DNA of 64,000 nt, from NCBI GenBank assembly GCA_950295325.1, contig OX485804.1, forward strand, positions 12,462,001 to 12,526,000. Reading direction: 5' to 3'. The position numbers and the translations under genes were made by a program. The DNA comes from Polytrichum commune. Lineage: Eukaryota > Streptophyta > Polytrichopsida > Polytrichales > Polytrichaceae. This document shows, piece by piece, positions 8,146 to 60,318 of the stretch (its first letter is position 1; every line of letters starts with the position of its first letter). The notes beneath the pieces were generated by a model. It was given only the letters and a program-made list of their open reading frames with translations, searched no databases and had not been told where the DNA came from.

Positions 8146-8586
8146 TCAACTCAAAAGAACTTCCAATATTAGCACATTGGCATGTTCCTCACTGTGTTGA
8201 GGCAAAATGTGGGTTTCCCACCATTCTCCAAAAGGTCGCCGCTCCCTCGTAAAATACCGCCGCTCTCCGCCAAGTCCTTCAACAATAATGTCGTCGTTTA
8301 CCACTCCAAATCCTCCACATGCCTCTTCAATTGCAAGCCCATTACCGTCCACTTCCTCGTTGTCATCCATGAATTGTCCACCTCCATCAAACAATGGCAA
8401 TTTAGAAGATTCTTCCATCACCATCACCATATGGCCTTCATTTCTCTCACTTGGACACACCTCCAAATCGTTTAAAATGCTCCCACTATCTTCCATAAAC
8501 AAAACATCTCTTATTTTTATGATTTTGTTTGTTTCCAAATACATCAACCTATATGCCTTCATACCTTCAAAATATCTGAGAAACAC
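8146..8586 (-). pseudogene. Copia polyprotein, integrase C-terminal region
   Basis: A 146-codon open stretch beginning FLRYFEGMKAYRLMYLETNK. This matches the copia box after the integrase core (FLGYSEGTKAYRLYDPETKK type). It ends with a linker containing RRYFTRERRPFGEWWE and HILPQHSEEHANV, as is common just before the copia reverse transcriptase. That reverse transcriptase is missing; the LTR-like repeat lies beyond. The plus-strand frame of 182 codons over the same region is its antisense shadow. Confidence 0.85.
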
Positions 8587-10433: not shown

Positions 10434-10838
10434 TTACTTTGTTTGAGACGAGAGGCGTGCGTATTTGTTTGGAGAGCAGAGCAAGTTGGCTTGTAACTTG
10501 GGCACGTGAAGCACTTCCAAGATGTGAATTCTATTTGTTTTGCCTTTTGTTTCAACTCCAATAACAATGGATCCCATTTTGATAGCTTTGGCCACGCTAC
10601 TATCACCCAAATGCACATTGCGTGGATAAATGACCTCGTAGGTATCAAATGCAACCCTATGCGAAGTCATGTACTTTAAGGCTCCCGAATTTATGATCCA
10701 CTTGCAAACACTCCTCAAAATGTGTTCCATGTTGCGTTGCAAACGCGAATTTGTTCTCGTGCTTCGTATTTTTGGCATTCTTCCTCTTTTTGTTCTTTGC
10801 TTTGTAGCAAAATCATACAATGAAGCTTGGTTTGTCAC
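10434..10838 (-). pseudogene. Copia aspartic protease region
   Basis: An open stretch of 134 codons. It contains WIINSGALKYMTSHRVAFDT, the copia retropepsin box (family form WIIDSGASKHMT), so the catalytic aspartate is asparagine here. It continues with GDSSVAKAIKMGSIVIGVET and HILEVLHVPKLQANLL, both typical of the segment leading to gag-pre-integrase. It follows the gag remains directly. Loss of the aspartate shows the protease is dead. Confidence 0.85.
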
Positions 10839-15256: not shown

Positions 15257-15825
15257 GGGCCGGTTTACACCATGGACCATAAAGTTGGACCATGGAAGAT
15301 GACCTTTTTCCATGATCCGACTTCATGGTCCAACTTCCATGGTCCAGTTTCTTAAGAAAAATAATTTACAAAGCCTTTGGGCCCTTCACTAGGTGTAAAC
15401 CTAATGTGGACCAAGAGGAATGACCATGCACCAAAAAATGAATGTGCTAACTTTCTTAAACAAAGGGCAGTTTTGAGAACAAAAAGGTCAAGTTTGACCA
15501 TTCTCTTGTCTTCTCTTGTCTTCATCTCCTCTTCCCCCCAAAAAAATCATTGAAATTTTATTATAACATTTCTCATGCCATGGGGCCTTGCCTTTTTCTA
15601 CCATATATAGCACCTCTTATGCCTCTCCCACCACAAAACATGTTGGACCATGCTAGTGGATGATGTAAGCCTTAATATATATCTTTTGGGGACCTCGAAC
15701 TCCATGGTCACTCTGACAACCTTTCCTTGATGGAAACCGAAGCGGTCCGAGGACGAGTTTAACAACCAATCCCAGATTCTACAGGGCCTTGGGACGACTT
15801 CATGGACCTTGGTGTAAACAACCCC
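15257..15825. mobile_element. PIF/Harbinger-like MITE, copy 2
   Basis: A 569-bp relative of the 998-1550 copy in the same orientation. The left end starts GGGCCGGTTTACACCATGG and the right end closes with CTTGGTGTAAACAACCCC. The flanks are TAA on the left and TTA on the right, which fits the TWA target preference although they are not identical. Confidence 0.85.
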
Positions 15826-24162: not shown

Positions 24163-24690
24163 GGTTACATGTTGACATCTTCTCCCAGTTTAGGTTCGTT
24201 CATTCAAGGTATATTCTTCTATAGATTCCTCTAAAACGATCGGTATCCCTCCCAGTTTCATCCTCTCCTCCCCCAGTTTGCCCTCGCCTTCGGTCACGAA
24301 TCGTGAGCATCAGTGCCCAGGAAGTTCTTGGGCATAGATAGGCGGTCAAGATCCGAGTGATTCTAAATCCAGCCGGTTACATGTTGACATCATCTTCCGG
24401 TTTAGCATCGTTCACTTGAGGTATATTCTTCTATAGATTTCTCTAAAACCATTGGTAACTCTACCAGTTCCATCCTCTCCTCCCCCCTCTCCCTGTTCGC
24501 CCTTGCCTTCGGTCACGAAATGTGAGCATCAGTGCCGGGGAAGTTCTTGGGCATAGATAGTCGGTCGAGATCCGAGTGATTCTAAATCCAGCCGGTTACA
24601 TGTTGACATCATCTTCCGGTCTAGCATCGTTCACTTGAGGTATATTCGTGTATAGATTCCTCTGAAACGCTTGGAAATTCTCCTGAAAGT

Positions 24691-32038: not shown

Positions 32039-32111
<73 letters not shown>

Positions 32112-32566: not shown

Positions 32567-32779
32567 GCTTATTAGGCACTTGCCTCACACTCACATTGAT
32601 TGCTGGATTGCATTGGATGCCACAAAAGATGATACCTTCGTCTATAATTGCTTGCTTCAGCCCCGCCAATAGCCCACCCACACTTAGGGCCGGTTTACAC
32701 TATGGACCACGAAGTTGGAACAGGCCTCTGTAAGGCAGTTGATTGGATGCTGAAGTTGTCCCGGGACAACTTCGGTTTA

Positions 32780-33274
32780 GGGGCGGTTTACACTATGGAC
32801 CATGAAGTCGTCCCACGGCCGTCTAAGCGATGTGATTGGACGTTGAAGTCGTCCCGGGACGACTTGGGTTTACACCAAGGAAAAAATGGCAGAGTGACCA
32901 CGGAGGTTGAGGTCCACAAATTTGTTTTTTTAAGCCTACTCTATCCACTGCCATGGTCCAACGGGTTTTCCGTTGGGACAAGCAAAAGAGGTGGTCTAGT
33001 AAAATAGCAAGGGCCCATGTCAGAAAAATGCCGTTTTAATAAAAATTTTGGATTTTTTTAATGATTTTTTTTCCAACTTAGTTAATGACTCCACTTTTTG
33101 GTGCATGGTCATTCTTCATGGTCCACATTCGGTTTACACCTAGTGAAGGGCCCACGAACCATGAAAACTAATATTTTAGTAACTCGGACCATGGAAGTCG
33201 TCCCATGTAGCCGTCCCACGCAAAATAGGCCTCTTACGTGGGACGACTTCATGGTCCATAGTGTAAACCGCCCC
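32780..33274. mobile_element. PIF/Harbinger-like MITE nested in a relative
   Basis: A 495-bp element. The left end is GGGGCGGTTTACACTATGGA, and the right end is its near-perfect inverse closing with GTGTAAACCGCCCC. TTA flanks both sides (32777-32779 and 33275-33277). Removing it restores TTCGGTTTACACTAAGGAAA, which matches the uninterrupted order at 59443-59462. It therefore inserted into the TTA of the motif GGTTTACAC inside the older element. Confidence 0.92.
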
Positions 33275-33628
33275 TTACACTAAGGAAAAAAAGTCAGAGG
33301 GACCATGAAGGTCGAGGTCCCTAAAATATAATGCACTGACATGGTTCAACGGGTTTTGCGGTGAGAGAGGCAAGAGAGGTGATATGGTGGTAAAAGGCAA
33401 GAGCCCATGGCAAATAGATGTTGTTTTAATAAATTTTAATGAATCTACCCTCTATGTGCCTTAATCATATCATAGTCCATGAAACATACCATTACTATCT
33501 TGCCCTACCCCTTAAACCGGCTCCCACATGTTTCACCAAACAACGTGGGACATCTAAAACTCAAGAATTTGAGAGCAGATTTGTTTTTTTCCTCTACCAA
33601 CTAAGTTTTTTGGAATTCTGGGGCTTGT

Positions 33629-33675
33629 AATATACCGTTGGAAAGGTCTTGAAAATACCTTTCCAACGGTATATT
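33629..33675. repeat. Perfect 19-bp hairpin
   Basis: AATATACCGTTGGAAAGGT (33629-33647), nine-base loop, then its exact complement (33657-33675). It lies in the portion of the PIF-like element that the 59-kb copy lacks. Confidence 0.85.
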
Positions 33676-34442
33676 ATGTGCTGATTTTTTTAAAAAATTT
33701 ACAGTTGAAAAATGAAAACAAAAAATCTATAGTCGTTTAGTGATTGTAGATCAGGGTGGTCAAAAGAACCGCAATGGGAAATCTTCCAACACTAATTATC
33801 GAAGAATTAAACTTTAGTGTTGGGCGAGGCAGGGTGGTAACAACATTAAATATAATCAAACACTAAATATCCTATTTAGTGTAGTGACAACACAAGGTAC
33901 ATTTCACATGCACAAATTAAATTGCTCAATTTTTTGTAAAAATTGTTGTGAGAAGATTTGCAAGCCACATCTTTGACACATTTAACAAGTGAAGACAAGT
34001 GAAGCCCAAGAGAAGACAAGAGAATGGTCAAACTTTAATTTTTTCAAAATTGTCATTTTTGGGCATGTATTAAAAAAATCAGCACCTTCACTTTTTGGTG
34101 CATGGTCATTTTTCTTGGTCCACATTTGGTTTACACCTAGTGAGGGGCCCAAGGCTCTCAAAACTAATATTTTATGAAGTCGGACCATGAACTCGGACCA
34201 TTTACAAAGGCCATCTTCCATGGTCCAACTTCATGGTCCATAGTGTAAAATGGCCCTTATTGGTGCAGATCACATGTGAACGGTTCTTACCATGACCAGT
34301 TACATCCAATGGTTCTCACTAGCTAAACTAACATTGAAAGTGGTCCCTGCTGGTAGGCACTTGCTTAACTCACATTAGTTTTGAATTACAATGAAGGCCT
34401 TAGCAGATGATACCTTGGTCTACAATTGCGTCAACCATGCCA

Positions 34443-36929: not shown

Positions 36930-37790
36930 AGTAAATAGTAGACAATCTCCAGTATATAATAAACAAAAGTCCGTTAATAGTAAAATAATATACTATAAAT
37001 AGTAAATAAGAATAGCACACCATTAATATACCTAATATAACTAATATAATATAATAATAAATATCAGACAATAAATAGTAAATAATATACTATATACAGT
37101 AGATAAGAATAACATACTGAAAATAATAAATAATATATTATATAAAGTAGATAATAATAAAATATTATAAATAATAACCAAAAGACCATTAATAGTACTA
37201 ATATACTATGAATATTAAAAATTAAATACCATACTATAAATAGTAAACAATATACTATATACAATAGATAATAATAAAATACTGATAATAATAAATAATA
37301 AACACCAGACCATTGTTAGTAATAATATACTATAAATAGTAAATAGTAACCATCATCCCATAAATAGTAAATAGTATACTATATACAATAGATAATAATA
37401 TCATACTGAAAATAATAAATAATAAATAATAAACATCAGACCATTAATAGTAATAATATACTATAAATATTAAATATTAAATATCACACCATATATAGTA
37501 AATAATATACTATATACAATATATAATAATAACATACTGAAAATATAAAATATTAAATATTAAATACTATAAATAATAAACCATAAACTATAAACAGTGA
37601 ATATTAGGTAGTACATAGTAAATATGATCATATAAATAGTAAATACGAGGCAGTAAATAGCAAATACGAGACACTTAATAATAAATAATAGGCATTATAC
37701 AACAAATACTGTATAATCAATTATAAATAGTAAATAATATATGCCGTATATAGTGGATATTATATTGTATACAGTCAATAAAAAGTAAAG
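36930..37790. repeat. Extremely AT-rich imperfect tandem array
   Basis: About 860 bp built from AAATAGTA, ATACTATA and TAATAATA blocks. A higher-order unit is visible through the anchor GACCATT at 37194, 37308 and 37439 (spacings 114 and 131 bp). There is almost no G or C. The frame at 37064-37264 is a shadow of this repeat. Confidence 0.85.
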
Positions 37791-47835: not shown

Positions 47836-48326
47836 GGGCCAATTCACACACAAACCAAGAGTTGTGACCATGAAATTATGAAAGCACAAAAGAAGTGCCC
47901 CAAGGTCGTCCCAAGACACTTCCAACATCATGTAGTGTGGTCACGGGCCCTCAAGTGTACCGTGAAGTCTTATGTGACTGGACCCTCAAACAAATGCTAT
48001 TTCAATGCACTCTATTCATGTAGGATCTCATACATGATAAAATATCTTAAATCAACAATTGTGAGATTTCAATGTGCCATGGTCTCCCGGTTTTTCTATG
48101 TCCAAGAAGTGGTTTATGAAAATAGTCCAAGTGCCCATGAAACACGATCCATTTTGACGCCATATAGAAATCCATGTAAACTTTTACATCCAACTTGCAT
48201 TCACTTACTCCAGTGGTCCCTCAAGCGTGGTGTGAAGCAAACATGGACTAGCTCCGGCTTTCCCACCAATGAGAGTGTTTGAAGTGCAATGATCACGGGC
48301 CCTCAGTCTTGTGTGTGAAGTGGCCC
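47836..48326. mobile_element. PIF/Harbinger-like MITE upstream of CLPTM1
   Basis: A 491-bp element. The left end is GGGCCAATTCACACACAAAC. The right end, reverse complemented, is GGGCCACTTCACACACAAGA. TAA flanks both sides (47833-47835 and 48327-48329), a perfect 3-bp duplication. It belongs with 57708-58308. It ends about 90 bp before the likely promoter G-box of the neighbouring gene. The 134-codon frame at 47878-48282 lies wholly inside it and is not a gene. Confidence 0.9.
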
Positions 48327-49731: not shown

Positions 49732-52700
49732 ATGGCGCCTCCCCAGGTGGCAGCCACTCAGGTGGCACAACCTGGCCAACAACCGCCAGCACAGCAAGGC
49801 TGGGCTGGATCCATATCTGGTATCATCCGCATGGGTATCTTTTGGTACTTTGCGATGCAGATGTTTGGATCCAAGAAAGTGACTAATCCTGATCTCCTTA
49901 CCAACAATCTCTTCAGCAAGGGCGAGAACTTAGTATGTCTTGAGATCCTTGTCTTTATTTAAATCCATGTTGTGGGTCAGTGGTAAGGTTATTTCCCAAT
50001 TTTTGTGTTGGTGCAAAATGAACATCTACAATTTTACAAAGCAATTTATTTCTTTAAAAAGAATTTCAATATGTAAAATCATGAGTGTGCATGGATATAA
50101 TGCATTTGTCATTCTTGGGTATGAAGATTATCAGGGAAAAAGTTCAAAACCAAATGACTGGTTTTGACTCCAACTAGCCAAACTTCCTCACCAACATTCA
50201 CACATTGGTCACATTTTTGCAAGATCTCCACACACATAGTCTGCTAATAACAAAAATATTTCCTTAAATCTCGTAATATATTCTAGAGTCATGAAAATCA
50301 CCAAATCATAAGCTTTGAAAATGCTCACATGGAGCTTATGAAGTGAAATACATCCACCAACTCTTTGTGGTTTTCTTCATGGAGATTTTCCTCATAAATC
50401 TGTACTCTTCACCTTCTAGTCAATATAAAAATTGTGGGACAACTCAGGCATTTAGGGCTTTAAGTGACTCTTAAAGCGACATTGAATCATTCACAGACAT
50501 GTCAAGCATGAGCTTCATTACCTTGACATAGTTCTTCTATGCGGTTCCTTGCCAATCACTTCCTTCATGTTAACCCCTAAACTGTCCAAGCCTATATCAA
50601 GTCATCAAAAAAGTGAATTTGTTATCATCTCAACCACACAGATCTTTATTGTCATAGTTGTTGTCTTTCCCTGCTGTAGTGACATGTGTTGAATTGTAGA
50701 CTCTAGCAGGTTAGACTATATGCTAATAGTAGGATGGTTGGAGGAACCGACATCTGTGTGTGCCCTTCAACAGGACTTTTGGCTGTACATGTCAGAGACT
50801 CCAGTATTTTCTGATTTTGGAAATGAAAATGCTCTGGTTTGGCATGAGACAAACGTTCCTTATGCTGTTTGGACACCAGAGAGTGTTCGCCACAAGAGCT
50901 TTGTGTATAAGCTTTCAGAGGTAATTGTAAATGTGAAAACTGAGGTTTTTCTTTGCTCTTAGTTTCCAATTATATATTTCTAGTCTAGGATGGACATTGG
51001 TGTTCCTGGGAGCTAAGAGTTTCACATGGTAGCCAATCATTGTACTAGATGCTTGTCAAAGTTGTTTCCTTTCTGGACTAGTTGCAGTTGTAATTTGTGT
51101 CCGTCTACTGTGAAGACTCTGAATTTACTCCTTTTAAATTACATCAATGCATATTGTGTTGTTATGAAGTCAGCCATCTCAATCTCTGAAGTCTCTACTG
51201 GTTCTACATCATGTGATATTGTTATGTGTGGCAGAATGTCCAGCGAAATGGAAGTGTATATGCACATGTCTTTTTTGCAAAGGCAGGGTATTCCCCTGAT
51301 CCAAGCAGCGCTGAATATGAACGCACAGCCTCCTTCCACAAAACGCATTGTAAGATTGTTTGTCTATATATCAAATATGTCATAACCACCTTATCATAAT
51401 TTAAACCTCCAGTAGGTTTTGTGGGCTCAGTTTATATGTCATCCTTGCATCCAATCATTCTGAGTTCATGTGCTATTCAGAAATAGTTGACTTCATCTAA
51501 AATGTAGACGTTTTGTGCAGAAATACCCCTTTAAGTAGTATGGACATTCTTTGGCATGACATGTAGACATCTATATTTATGGTTCATCCAGTGTGTTGTT
51601 GTACATGGAAAAGTTTAAGTTACACAAAGTGTTGTAACTGAAGTTTGCATGTGTGATTGCCACTTGCAGCATTTGTTGTGTACTCACCAAAACCAAAGGA
51701 TGACAAACGGAAGAGTCTGTGGGCAAAGGATGATAAGGACGGTGTTGAAAAAGCTGCAGAGGTTTATCATTGTTCATGGATTTGATATACTTCTATCTTC
51801 TCTAGTGTTCTCTTGGATTTCTTGCATATATGGTATGTGAACCTGTTGTAGGTGTAAACATGATGCCAATGACAGACTAGTTTCACATCCATGTCAACCG
51901 TGGATTTTGGTTAAGATGTAGGTGACTTCCGATGTTAATGAGGCTCTTGTCTTTGTATTTTTGCAGCAGCTTCTGGAGCTGCCATCAGAGGAAGAGGATG
52001 AAGCCCCCCAGACTTGGGTCTCATATTTTAAGCCCAATATGACCATCAACTTAGTGGACGACTTTACGAAGTAAATATTGTGGCCTTACTGCTTGACCAT
52101 GCTGTTATTATCTTTCAAAAGAGATTCTATGTGTCATGTTAGAGAGTGGAACAGTTTACATTCTTGTATGTAGGAAATGTAGGAGCTGCTGGAAATCATT
52201 TTGGGTTTGATTTGAATCCAATTCTATGAAAATTGTTATAGGGTTCAAACTGAAAGTTGTTAGGTATGTGTATTGGCTATTGGCTTCAATCTAGGTCTAA
52301 AAGTGAGATTGGTGTGGATGACAGGTATCCTAGAGACGGAGCTCCACCTCCTATTTCTGGATGTATCCTCCACAATTTACTTCTTTGTTAATTGCAGTTA
52401 CTAAATAAATCTTCCAACCTAAAAACACATGCAAACTTCAGTTACAACACTTTGACAGTGATTTGTATTTGTTTAAATGGACTGTTTAATTTGGAAATAC
52501 AAATGAAGTACACTAAACCATGTATTAAGTGGGGACCACATTTAATCCAAAGAATCCGGTGTCCGCATTTAACGGGTCCCATATTGTTTTTCATCTAGGC
52601 TAACCTCCCATACTAATTACACATTTTTAGTGTTGACAGTTGGCAGTTAGGGTAAAATGGACCAAGACTAATAAGTGTGTCTATCTTGAGTTTGACGGGT

Positions 52701-55482
52701 CAATATATTGACTGGACTAAATTTGTTGTTTGCTCTCTTGCCGAGAACATGTTCTTCTTGACTTGAGACACCAGACTTGAACTTTGATAATATTACTGGT
52801 GATTATTATCCAACTGTGTACTTCAATGAATTCTGGTTCCTGAAGGACAAGCTTGTGCTTCTCAATGAGACTGTCAAGGAGATTCCTGTGAACCTAGAGT
52901 TGGGTCCTATCAGTCTCACTCGTTGGCAGCTTTATCTACAAGTTGACCAGTCTTTCCAGATTCATCGCTCTTACGGTAGCATGCTTGATGGTGAAGCTGA
53001 TGAGCTAAAGGTATGACTGTCCATGTATATTGTAACTGATGTTACCTTCTGAGCATATAATTTTCCTAAGTACCTGAAATAAGTTCCTGGTGACCAATAT
53101 GCAGAACAAATGTACTTTGATGTGGTTTTGCAATATCCTGCATTAGCAAACATGGCATTGAGGTGCTTGCTCAAGAAATAATGAAATGGGAAAGCATGAA
53201 CAACATAGTACATCAGGTCATGGATAGAGAAATTAATTGAGATATGATTTGTCAATGGATGATTGTCTGAGCACTTTCTAATTGTTCATCTCGGGTATTG
53301 CAGAGGGTTTTTCTGGAAGGAAATCCATACCTGCTTGGTTTGACGATGTGTGTTTCGCTCTTGCACACTGTTTTTGACTTCTTGGCTTTCAAGAACGGTA
53401 AGTCTGCCTGTATTTGGTGCTGGAGGATGTTCCATGTCATGTTACTCCTTTCAATATCTCTCTTGTGTGACCATCGCATTGAGTACACTTGGAACCTGGA
53501 TTTTGATATGTTTTGGTGCTTTGCATATTGAACTATTTTTCTGTAGTATGGCTGTCGATGGAAGCCTTTGTTTGTGTATACATGTTTTTCTGTGGTTCTT
53601 CCCTAACCATGACCATGCTTTTGATGACATGTCTTCATGCAGATATTCAGTTCTGGAACAAGAACAAGTCTATGGAAGGTTTATCAGCACGATCTGTAGT
53701 GATCAACTTTGCCTGCCAGTTCATTGTGTTTTTGTATCTGCTTGACAATGAAACTTCTTGGATGATTATTGTTAGTGCGGGGTTGGGCTGCTGTATCGAG
53801 TTTTGGAAAATCGGCAAGGCCATGCATATTGAGGTACCCTTGGAACAATTTCTACATAACCTTCACGACAGGAGGAACTTCAAATTGGTGTAGGTTTTGA
53901 TCCTGTGACATGTTTAAGAAGAAATTGTAGCAGATCTCTTGTATATTGTTGTCCCTTGTGCTTTGCTGACAACTTTTTTCCCTTGATACTATCCCATTGA
54001 TTTTGTGCAGGTTGATCGGAGCAGAGGATTCCCCCTTCTTAGGTTCAGGGATCGGGAGTCGTATGCTGGTAATAGGACGAAGGAATATGATGACTTGGCT
54101 ATGCGCTACTTATCCTATCTTTTGTATCCCCTGGTTGGGTGTTTTGCGGTGTACTCACTAATGTATGAAAGGCATAAAAGCTGGTACTCTTGGATTCTTG
54201 GATCCCTGACAAGCTGCGTCTACACTTTCGGTAGGTCCACACTGTCTACATTAACCCTCTTTTCCAAAATCTCCCAAAGTGTTTGGAGGATACAGCACTA
54301 TTGGTCACACGCAAGATTAACTTCTCTTTTGCACATTGTCAAGGATGTAATAGCAGTCTATTTGTGGTCACATGTGGCTCAATCCTTTTGGTCTTGTTCT
54401 GATGGTTCTCGTCGCTTGTGTGCAGGATTTATCATGATGTGTCCACAGCTGTTTATTAACTACAAGCTTAAGTCAGTGGCACACATGCCCTGGCGACAGA
54501 TGACATACAAGTTCCTCAACACGATAATCGACGACTTATTTGCATTTGTTATCAAAATGCCCCTCTTGCATCGCCTGTCAGTGTTCCGTGACGGTACAGT
54601 TTCTTTCCTCCGTACAACTTTTTTCTGTCAAAGTAACCTCTCCGAAGCCAGTACTCATCCACATTTAAGGTCTTGTGGTAGGTCTTGAAAGTTCCTCACT
54701 TGGACTATAGTTTTGATGTCATTTGTGGCTGTAGGCAAGAGGCTAAATGCTAACTAAAGAGTTCCTGAAATACTGTAGCTTTTTTAGAGAACAGTGTCAT
54801 CCTTTCCCTCTATGAGACTTTCCGTTGGGAGTTGGTTCTCTACAATTCCCATTGGTTATTTTGCAAAAAAAATGAACTCCCACTTGTGGTGCATGCTTGT
54901 AGAGGTATTGTATGAATTTGAATATAGAGCACCCTCAGTTGGTACCTTGAGGACCAAATTTATTTTAGCACCTCTTGGCACTCTCAATGAACTGATATAG
55001 AAATGTCCCTCATTCAAATTCAAACCCTACCTCCAAGCATGCACTTAAAACTTACTGAACATAGCAGGTGTTGTATGCAAAAAAAGAGTCAATGGGAGGT
55101 AATAGGCATCCTGAATCGACCTCACAACTAATGTGGTGGCATGCTCCTCTGGTATACTTGATTTGCAGATTTGATTTTCCTCATCTACTTGTACCAGCGA
55201 TGGGTGTATCCGGTTGATAAGAAGCGTGTCAACGAGTTTGGGTTTGGTGGAGAAGAGAAGAGCGAGGAGGGAGCAGAGAAGCTTCTGGAAGGGGCAAAAG
55301 AACCTGGAGTGGAGGAAGACAAAGCTGGGGAAGCTAGGTCAGATGGACCCAAAACAGGTATCACACAGGATCAGGTCAGCAGGACATCTGCAGGAATTAG
55401 GAATGAGAAGGACACTAGTAGTAGTAGTGAAGTAGGCAGAGCCAGGGTGGAGTCCAAAAAGGATAGTAAGAAAAGGTCATAG
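49732..55482 (+). CDS. CLPTM1: CLPTM1 family multi-pass membrane protein (12 coding exons)
   Basis: Plant homologue of cleft lip and palate transmembrane protein 1, an ER/Golgi multi-pass protein. Exons: 49732-49932, 50774-50920, 51235-51349, 51670-51761, 51967-52070, 52325-52362, 52775-53010, 53304-53397, 53643-53833, 54011-54230, 54426-54593, 55169-55482. All borders are GT..AG and phases agree, giving 1920 nt and 639 residues without a stop. This is near the family length. The start ATGGCGCC gives MAPPQVAATQ, as in other plant members. Landmarks: a hydrophobic helix at about 28-46; the ectodomain with FSDFGNENALVWHETNVPYA (from about residue 78) and SFQIHRSYGSMLDGE; hydrophobic segments at about 320-340, 358-376, 382-400, 438-460, 467-490 and 536-545. 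HRLSVFRDDLIFLIYLYQRW then VYPVDKKRVNEFGFGG is the conserved C-terminal signature. The acidic/basic tail ends KKRS, which fits a dilysine KKxx ER-retrieval signal. Human relatives act in trafficking of GABA-A receptors and lipid scrambling; the plant role is not established. Probably intact and expressed. Confidence 0.95.
51625..51654. repeat. Intron 3 arm of a 30-bp perfect inverted repeat
   Basis: Lies in the third intron between coding exons, 15 bp before the exon 4 acceptor. It is the exact reverse complement of 52425-52454. It starts CAAAGTGTTGTAACTGAAGT. Confidence 0.9.
52425..52454. repeat. Intron 6 arm of a 30-bp perfect inverted repeat
   Basis: Lies in intron 6, 62 bp after the exon 6 donor. 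It pairs perfectly with 51625-51654 across exons 4, 5 and 6. It starts ACACATGCAAACTTCAGTTA. Confidence 0.9.
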
Positions 55483-59357: not shown

Positions 59358-60318
59358 CATGGGATAATGGACCATGGACCAGGAAGTTGTCTCAGGTTGA
59401 TGTAAGACCGTTGATTGGTTGTTGAACTCATCCTGGGACCACTTCGGTTTACACCAAGGAAAAAATGGCAGAGTGACCATGGAGGTCAAGGTTCTCAAAA
59501 GACATATTTGAAGGCCTAATTAATACATTGACATGGTCTACCGGGTTCCACAGTGAGAGAGACAAGAGAGGTGTTATGGTAGGAAAAGGCACTTGGCCCA
59601 TGGCAAAGAAATGCCGTTATAATATTTTTTAAATGAAATTTGTTTTTGGGGCTTTAAATACAACTCTTCCCACTAGGTAAGGTTCACAAGGCACACTTTT
59701 CAAAATCTATGTAATGTAATGAATCTTTAAAAGCAAGTCCGCCCTCTACGTGCCTCGATCATATCATAGCCCATGAGACATGCCATATCTTACATGCCCT
59801 ACCCCTTAAACTGGCTCCCACATGTTTCACCAAACAATGTGAGACATCTAGAACTCAAGAATTCGAGTACACATGGTGAAGCGGGTTGCAAATAATGCTC
59901 AATGTACAACACAAGGTACATGTCTCATGTAAATCACATTGAACATGTACAAATTAAATCACTCATTTTTTTGGTGAGAATTGTTGTGAGAAGATTTGCA
60001 AGCTTCATCTTCAACACATTTAACAAGAAGTGAAGACAAGTGAGCCCAAGAGCATACAAGAGAATGATCAATTTTGATTTTTTTTTTCAAAAATACCCCT
60101 TTTGGGCATATATTAAAAAAAATTAGCACATTTTCTTTCTGGTGCATGGTCATTCTTCTTGGTCCACATTCGGTTTACACTTAGCTAGCGAGGGACCCAA
60201 AGGCTTTGTAAATTGATTTAAAAAAAATTAAACCATGGAAATTGGACCATCAAGTCGGATCATTAAAAAATGCCATCTTCCATGATCCGACTTCATGGTC
60301 CATGGTGTAAACCAGCCC
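59358..60318. mobile_element. PIF/Harbinger-like element, long copy
   Basis: About 960 bp. The left tip has decayed (recognisable from GGACCATGGACCAGGAAGTT). The right end closes with CATGGTCCATGGTGTAAACC then AGCCC. Internal order matches 32687-34256 once that copy's nested element is removed, including GGTTTACACCAAGGAAAAAA near 59447 and GTTTCACCAAACAA near 59824. It therefore serves as the empty-site reference for the nested insertion. It has no transposase. Confidence 0.85.

Follow-up and report, generated by a model that had tools for sequence, protein, structure and literature searches.

A perfect 30-bp inverted repeat with arms in introns 3 and 6 of a CLPTM1 homologue, probably a templated inverted copy

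Introns 3 and 6 of a CLPTM1 homologue carry the two arms of a perfect 30-bp inverted repeat, which is real and beyond what chance would produce. In our interpretation, which we hold to be probable though well short of secure, the repeat would be a recent and near-neutral templated inverted copy between the two introns, and would be unlikely to give rise to a circle or a skip of exons 4-6. As found, the repeat matters little, being no more than a further short inverted duplication in non-coding sequence, and the caution to be drawn from it is that the spliceosome class of complementary introns should be checked before a circle or a skip is inferred.

The window, by which we mean throughout the whole 64-kb stretch of DNA that was analysed, contains the following parts of the gene and of the repeat:

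49732-55482, plus strand: coding span of the CLPTM1 homologue, with 12 coding exons encoding 639 aa (gene model and Pfam)
51350-51669, plus strand: intron 3, with the U2-like donor GTAAGA, phase 1
51625-51654, plus strand: left arm of the perfect 30-bp inverted repeat, in intron 3 (sequence match)
51670-51761, plus strand: exon 4, 92 nt (gene model)
51967-52070, plus strand: exon 5, 104 nt (gene model)
52325-52362, plus strand: exon 6, 38 nt, opening with GTATCCT (gene model)
52425-52454, minus strand: right arm, the reverse complement of the left arm, in intron 6 (sequence match)

The predicted protein matches the Pfam family CLPTM1 (PF05602) with E = 1.1e-147 over residues 35-458 of 639, and the same 639-aa protein has a PQ-loop match slightly below the cut-off (21.8 vs 22). 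A search of the PDB by sequence with the homologue matched no chains, and the exon 7 peptide gave eight pattern matches in viral_contigs, none of which was upheld by tblastn. Exons 4, 5 and 6 sum to 234 nt (3 x 78) and, because the gene model puts both introns 3 and 6 in phase 1, joint loss of the three exons would stay in frame; the first-pass annotation had claimed as much from the exon lengths (92+104+38), correctly, and on reading the exon 3-7 junction the split Ser codon is seen to become Tyr. The residues lost would number 78 (155-232) and lie inside the Pfam-matched stretch. The frame would be shifted if exon 4 only (92 nt), or exons 4 and 5 together (196 nt), were lost. A tandem CAGCAG (NAGNAG) acceptor is located ahead of exon 5, at 51964-51969, and could add or drop one residue.

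By exact comparison within the 64-kb window, the two arms are 100% complementary and are separated by a spacer of 770 nt, with 15 nt between the left arm and exon 4. Both the perfect repeat in introns 3 and 6 and the 15-bp gap to the exon 4 acceptor had been described beforehand, and both descriptions are borne out. When up to 3 mismatches were allowed, the 30-mer had two matches in the window, which were the two arms only, and none in 100 dinucleotide shuffles. The longest exact inverted match in ten first-order Markov windows of 64 kb was 15-20 bp, against 30 bp in the real sequence, and the top inverted match among 50 Markov copies of the 4.5-kb gene region was 20 bp. A chance origin is ruled out by the absence of matches in the shuffles and the 20-bp maximum in the Markov windows. 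The exact 30-mer had no matches in viral_contigs or in genome_contigs, both of which are ill-suited for a eukaryote. Ranked by length across the whole window, with low-complexity words removed, the repeat stands third among 41 exact inverted matches of at least 16 bp, of which the best 40 were viewed; the longer matches, of 39 bp (32779/33237) and 33 bp (1013/34209), both overlap repeats that are multiply present in the window.

Several other repetitive features were observed. The 39-bp pair at 32779/33237 belongs to a dispersed repeat composed of exact blocks of 16-39 bp in both orientations, found at about 1008-1505, 15262-15790, 32665-34439 and 59446-60290, which is probably a transposable-element family. 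Minus-strand ORFs at 8146-8586 and 10434-10838, with Pfam matches to SH3_retrovirus (at the cut-off) and Pol_BBD in a scan that covered 5 of 10 ORFs, are copia-like retrotransposon remnants. A near-identical block around TGTGTGAAGTGGCCCT is present at 48308, 57705 and 58290, that is, on both sides of the CLPTM1 gene and once inverted, and the window also contains an AT-rich imperfect tandem array with many overlapping periods (36975-37694), a 219-bp tandem repeat (24163-24668) and an (AG)30 run (32049-32109).

The match between the arms stops abruptly at its ends. Ungapped identity in the flanks is 6/30 and 7/30, and gapped scores for the flanks only were reached by 160 of 300 and 86 of 300 shuffles, i.e., they are not above shuffles; when intron 3 is aligned, with gaps, to the reverse of intron 6, the top-scoring alignment does extend past the arm, with a score of 79 of which the arm accounts for 60. 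An exact nearby copy (30/30) between unrelated flanks is what is looked for in a templated insertion and, with the abrupt ends, suggests that such an insertion took place recently and in inverted orientation. We propose that one of the two introns served as template for 30 bp inserted in inverted orientation into the other, most probably as filler DNA made during break repair, whether by theta-mediated end joining or through a comparable switch of template. The likelier source would be the left arm, since it sits where the branch point of intron 3 is expected, and the repeat would be without a dedicated function. If both arms have evolved neutrally, the perfect 30/30 match sets a 95% upper limit on their age, which comes to about 7 My for a rate of 7e-9 changes per site per year and to about 25 My for 2e-9. 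In Arabidopsis, according to an excerpt of PMC10923293, theta-mediated end joining is characterised by insertions whose template lies close to the break, and the fillers often map to the immediate flank; for yeast, an excerpt of PMC11724301 describes inverted templated insertions at breaks, mostly of 5-34 bp, and foldbacks between inverted homologies that lie no more than 63 bp from the break. The distance between the arms, about 800 bp, exceeds that of the typical templated cases in these excerpts for either organism.

Alternatively, the arms could derive from a dispersed or transposable element, for example from the ends of a small inverted-repeat element, of which fragments inserted twice and in opposing directions. 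In favour of this idea, the window does contain further dispersed repeats and remnants of copia type, but only two copies are found in 64 kb at up to 3 mismatches and the flanks of the two arms are unrelated, and we consider such an origin unlikely. A single element with the arms as its ends is likewise unlikely, given the three exons of a conserved gene that separate them. An Rfam scan of the window at gathering thresholds returned no matches, and so offers no structured-RNA explanation.

What a templated inverted copy in these positions might do to the transcript depends in part on how intron 6 is spliced, and two further features are relevant here:

52363-52774, plus strand: intron 6, probably U12-type, with donor GTATCCTCC, ending in CAG, phase 1
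52753-52761, plus strand: U12-like branch-site match CTTCTTGAC (7/9), with its A 13 nt from the end of intron 6, the coordinates being derived from that distance

U12 introns carry a branch site of the form TTCCTTRAC, which lies in a zone 8-21 nt from the intron end. Two properties are peculiar to intron 6 among the 11 introns of the gene: its donor matches RTATCCT at all of the first seven positions, and a 7/9 match to the U12 branch site lies 8-21 nt from its end. Its donor agrees with RTATCCTTT at 7/7 of the first positions and 7/9 overall, and the strict RTATCCTT donor rule for U12 introns, as it appears in an excerpt of PMC2846911, is broken at +8; when compared by eye with UCCUUAACU from the same excerpt, CTTCTTGAC also scores 7/9. 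Considering both strands of the whole window, GTATCCT is found at 6 of 7361 GT sites, the intron 6 donor included, and 291 of 7061 AG sites are preceded by a U12 branch match of this kind; GTATCCT also supplies the first bases of exon 6. If the branch zone is widened to about 37 nt, intron 8 matches at 8/9 (36 nt from the end) and intron 9 at 7/9 (24 nt). The intron 9 donor, GTACCCTTG, equals that of intron 6 at 7/9 overall, but has 6 of the first 7 positions, which makes intron 9 (53834-54010) a near miss for a U12 donor. The U2 donor score is 3/6 for intron 6, and equally low in introns 4, 9 and 11; the GTAAGA donor of intron 3 scores 5/6. On these consensus counts intron 6 is a probable U12-type (minor-spliceosome) intron, and intron 3 looks to be U2-type by its donor. 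In a literature search combining CLPTM1 with U12, PMC2423196 matches by virtue of a table row for CLPTM1L and, in its excerpted text, excludes U12 introns, and the remaining matches appeared unrelated as judged on titles alone.

This combination of intron classes bears on the expectation, raised in the first-pass annotation, that pairing of the arms would loop out exons 4-6 and so promote their circularisation or skipping. Pairing would bring the exon 6 donor to the exon 4 acceptor, yielding a circle of 234 nt, or exon 3 to exon 7, yielding an in-frame product with 78 fewer residues. The geometry, the preserved frame and the capacity to pair all hold: in predicted folds of introns 3-6, or of exons 3-7, all 30 arm pairs are present in the minimum-energy structure with a mean probability of 0.994, and the isolated arm duplex is predicted at -48.4 kcal/mol, these being figures for naked RNA. 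An excerpt of PMC6965350 puts the minimum repeat length for circularisation at 30-40 nt, which can suffice in general, and the complements in the two flanking introns, with 30 nt at 100%, lie at the bottom of this range; in the plants reviewed in the excerpted part of PMC6454147, complementary flanks are rare around circRNAs, and we take the present genome to be a plant's. The expected splicing outcome does not hold so well. By consensus counts, the exon 6-to-4 back-splice would join the U12-like donor of intron 6 to the U2-like acceptor of intron 3, and the exon 3-to-7 skip would join the U2-like donor of intron 3 to the U12-like acceptor of intron 6. U2 and U12 splice sites are generally incompatible, which is partly why skipping is near-absent around U12 introns, although a few mutually exclusive hybrid cases do exist (both points from an excerpt of PMC3584512). 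Added to this, the back-splice would depend on a branch-point region that is itself covered by the left arm, and the skip would cut into the Pfam-matched stretch at residues 155-232. Since intron 6 probably depends on the minor spliceosome, neither an exon 4-6 circle nor an exon 3-7 junction would be expected, and we judge either to be very unlikely. A more elaborate possibility, that the duplex ties a U2-type to a U12-type intron and forces a hybrid back-splice circle of exons 4-6, with the slow minor intron acting as a timer, would break a general rule of splice-site pairing if true, and seems to us extremely improbable. Splice sites of compatible class inside the loop would allow a back-splice from exon 5 to exon 4, or the joining of exon 3 to exon 5 or to exon 6.

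Any effect of the duplex would more likely fall on intron 3. The arms could pair in the pre-mRNA only if intron 3 were still unspliced as the polymerase passes 52454. A scan of intron 3 for branch-point patterns found no fit to CTRAY or to YTNAY, and two loose matches to YTRAN, one of which lies within the repeat:

51638-51642, plus strand: loose branch-point candidate CTGAA, with its A at 51641, 28 nt from the end of intron 3 and inside the left arm

The other, TTAAG, has its A at 51618, 51 nt from the intron end and outside the arm. The left arm had also been suggested to hide the exon 4 acceptor on pairing, and here the predicted folds point the other way: inclusion of the right arm raises the probability that the acceptor region is unpaired from 0.325 to 0.463, and lowers that of the in-arm branch candidate, which is mostly paired even without the right arm, from 0.170 to 0.001. 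The duplex would therefore mask the branch region and not the acceptor. If it acts at all, the likelier consequence of a masked branch candidate would be that intron 3 is retained, or exon 4 skipped, in some transcripts. In a designed construct, splicing was inhibited when a branch point was masked, with exon skipping possible, according to an excerpt of PMC2275289.

It might be supposed that such masking has been selected as a kinetic switch, in which slow splicing of intron 3 allows the arms to pair, and exon 4 is then skipped (92 nt, a frameshift) or intron 3 kept, so that the protein is lowered. The predicted closure of the candidate with the right arm, and the designed precedent, are what such a switch would call for, but the arm contains no strict branch-point consensus and the other loose candidate lies outside it, and the switch would be abolished were intron 3 removed before the polymerase passes 52454. 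A selected switch is possible but unsupported, and we think it decidedly improbable. A templated inverted copy with no dedicated function, which might incidentally cover the branch-point region of intron 3, continues to be the interpretation that we prefer.

The repeat has analogues in several known systems, each of which it resembles in part. Like the filler DNA of theta-mediated end joining, as set out in the excerpt of PMC10923293, it is a short exact copy of nearby sequence with abrupt ends, of a kind that may be in either orientation; unlike that filler, the putative insertion would have its donor some 800 bp away. It shares with the short templated inverted duplications of yeast its inverted orientation and a length within the 5-34 bp that most of them measure, but the local foldbacks described in the same excerpt (PMC11724301) have spacers of tens of bases, compared with 770 nt here. 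The arrangement also recalls circRNAs with intronic reverse complements, in that the complements bracket internal exons and have the minimum length given in the excerpt of PMC6965350; however, the donor and acceptor in this case are apparently of different spliceosome classes. Finally, the predicted stem over a branch-point candidate is reminiscent of branch-point sequestration as excerpted from PMC2275289, but there the stem is engineered and ligand-controlled, whereas here it is a prediction in which the partner strand lies 770 nt downstream, past three exons.
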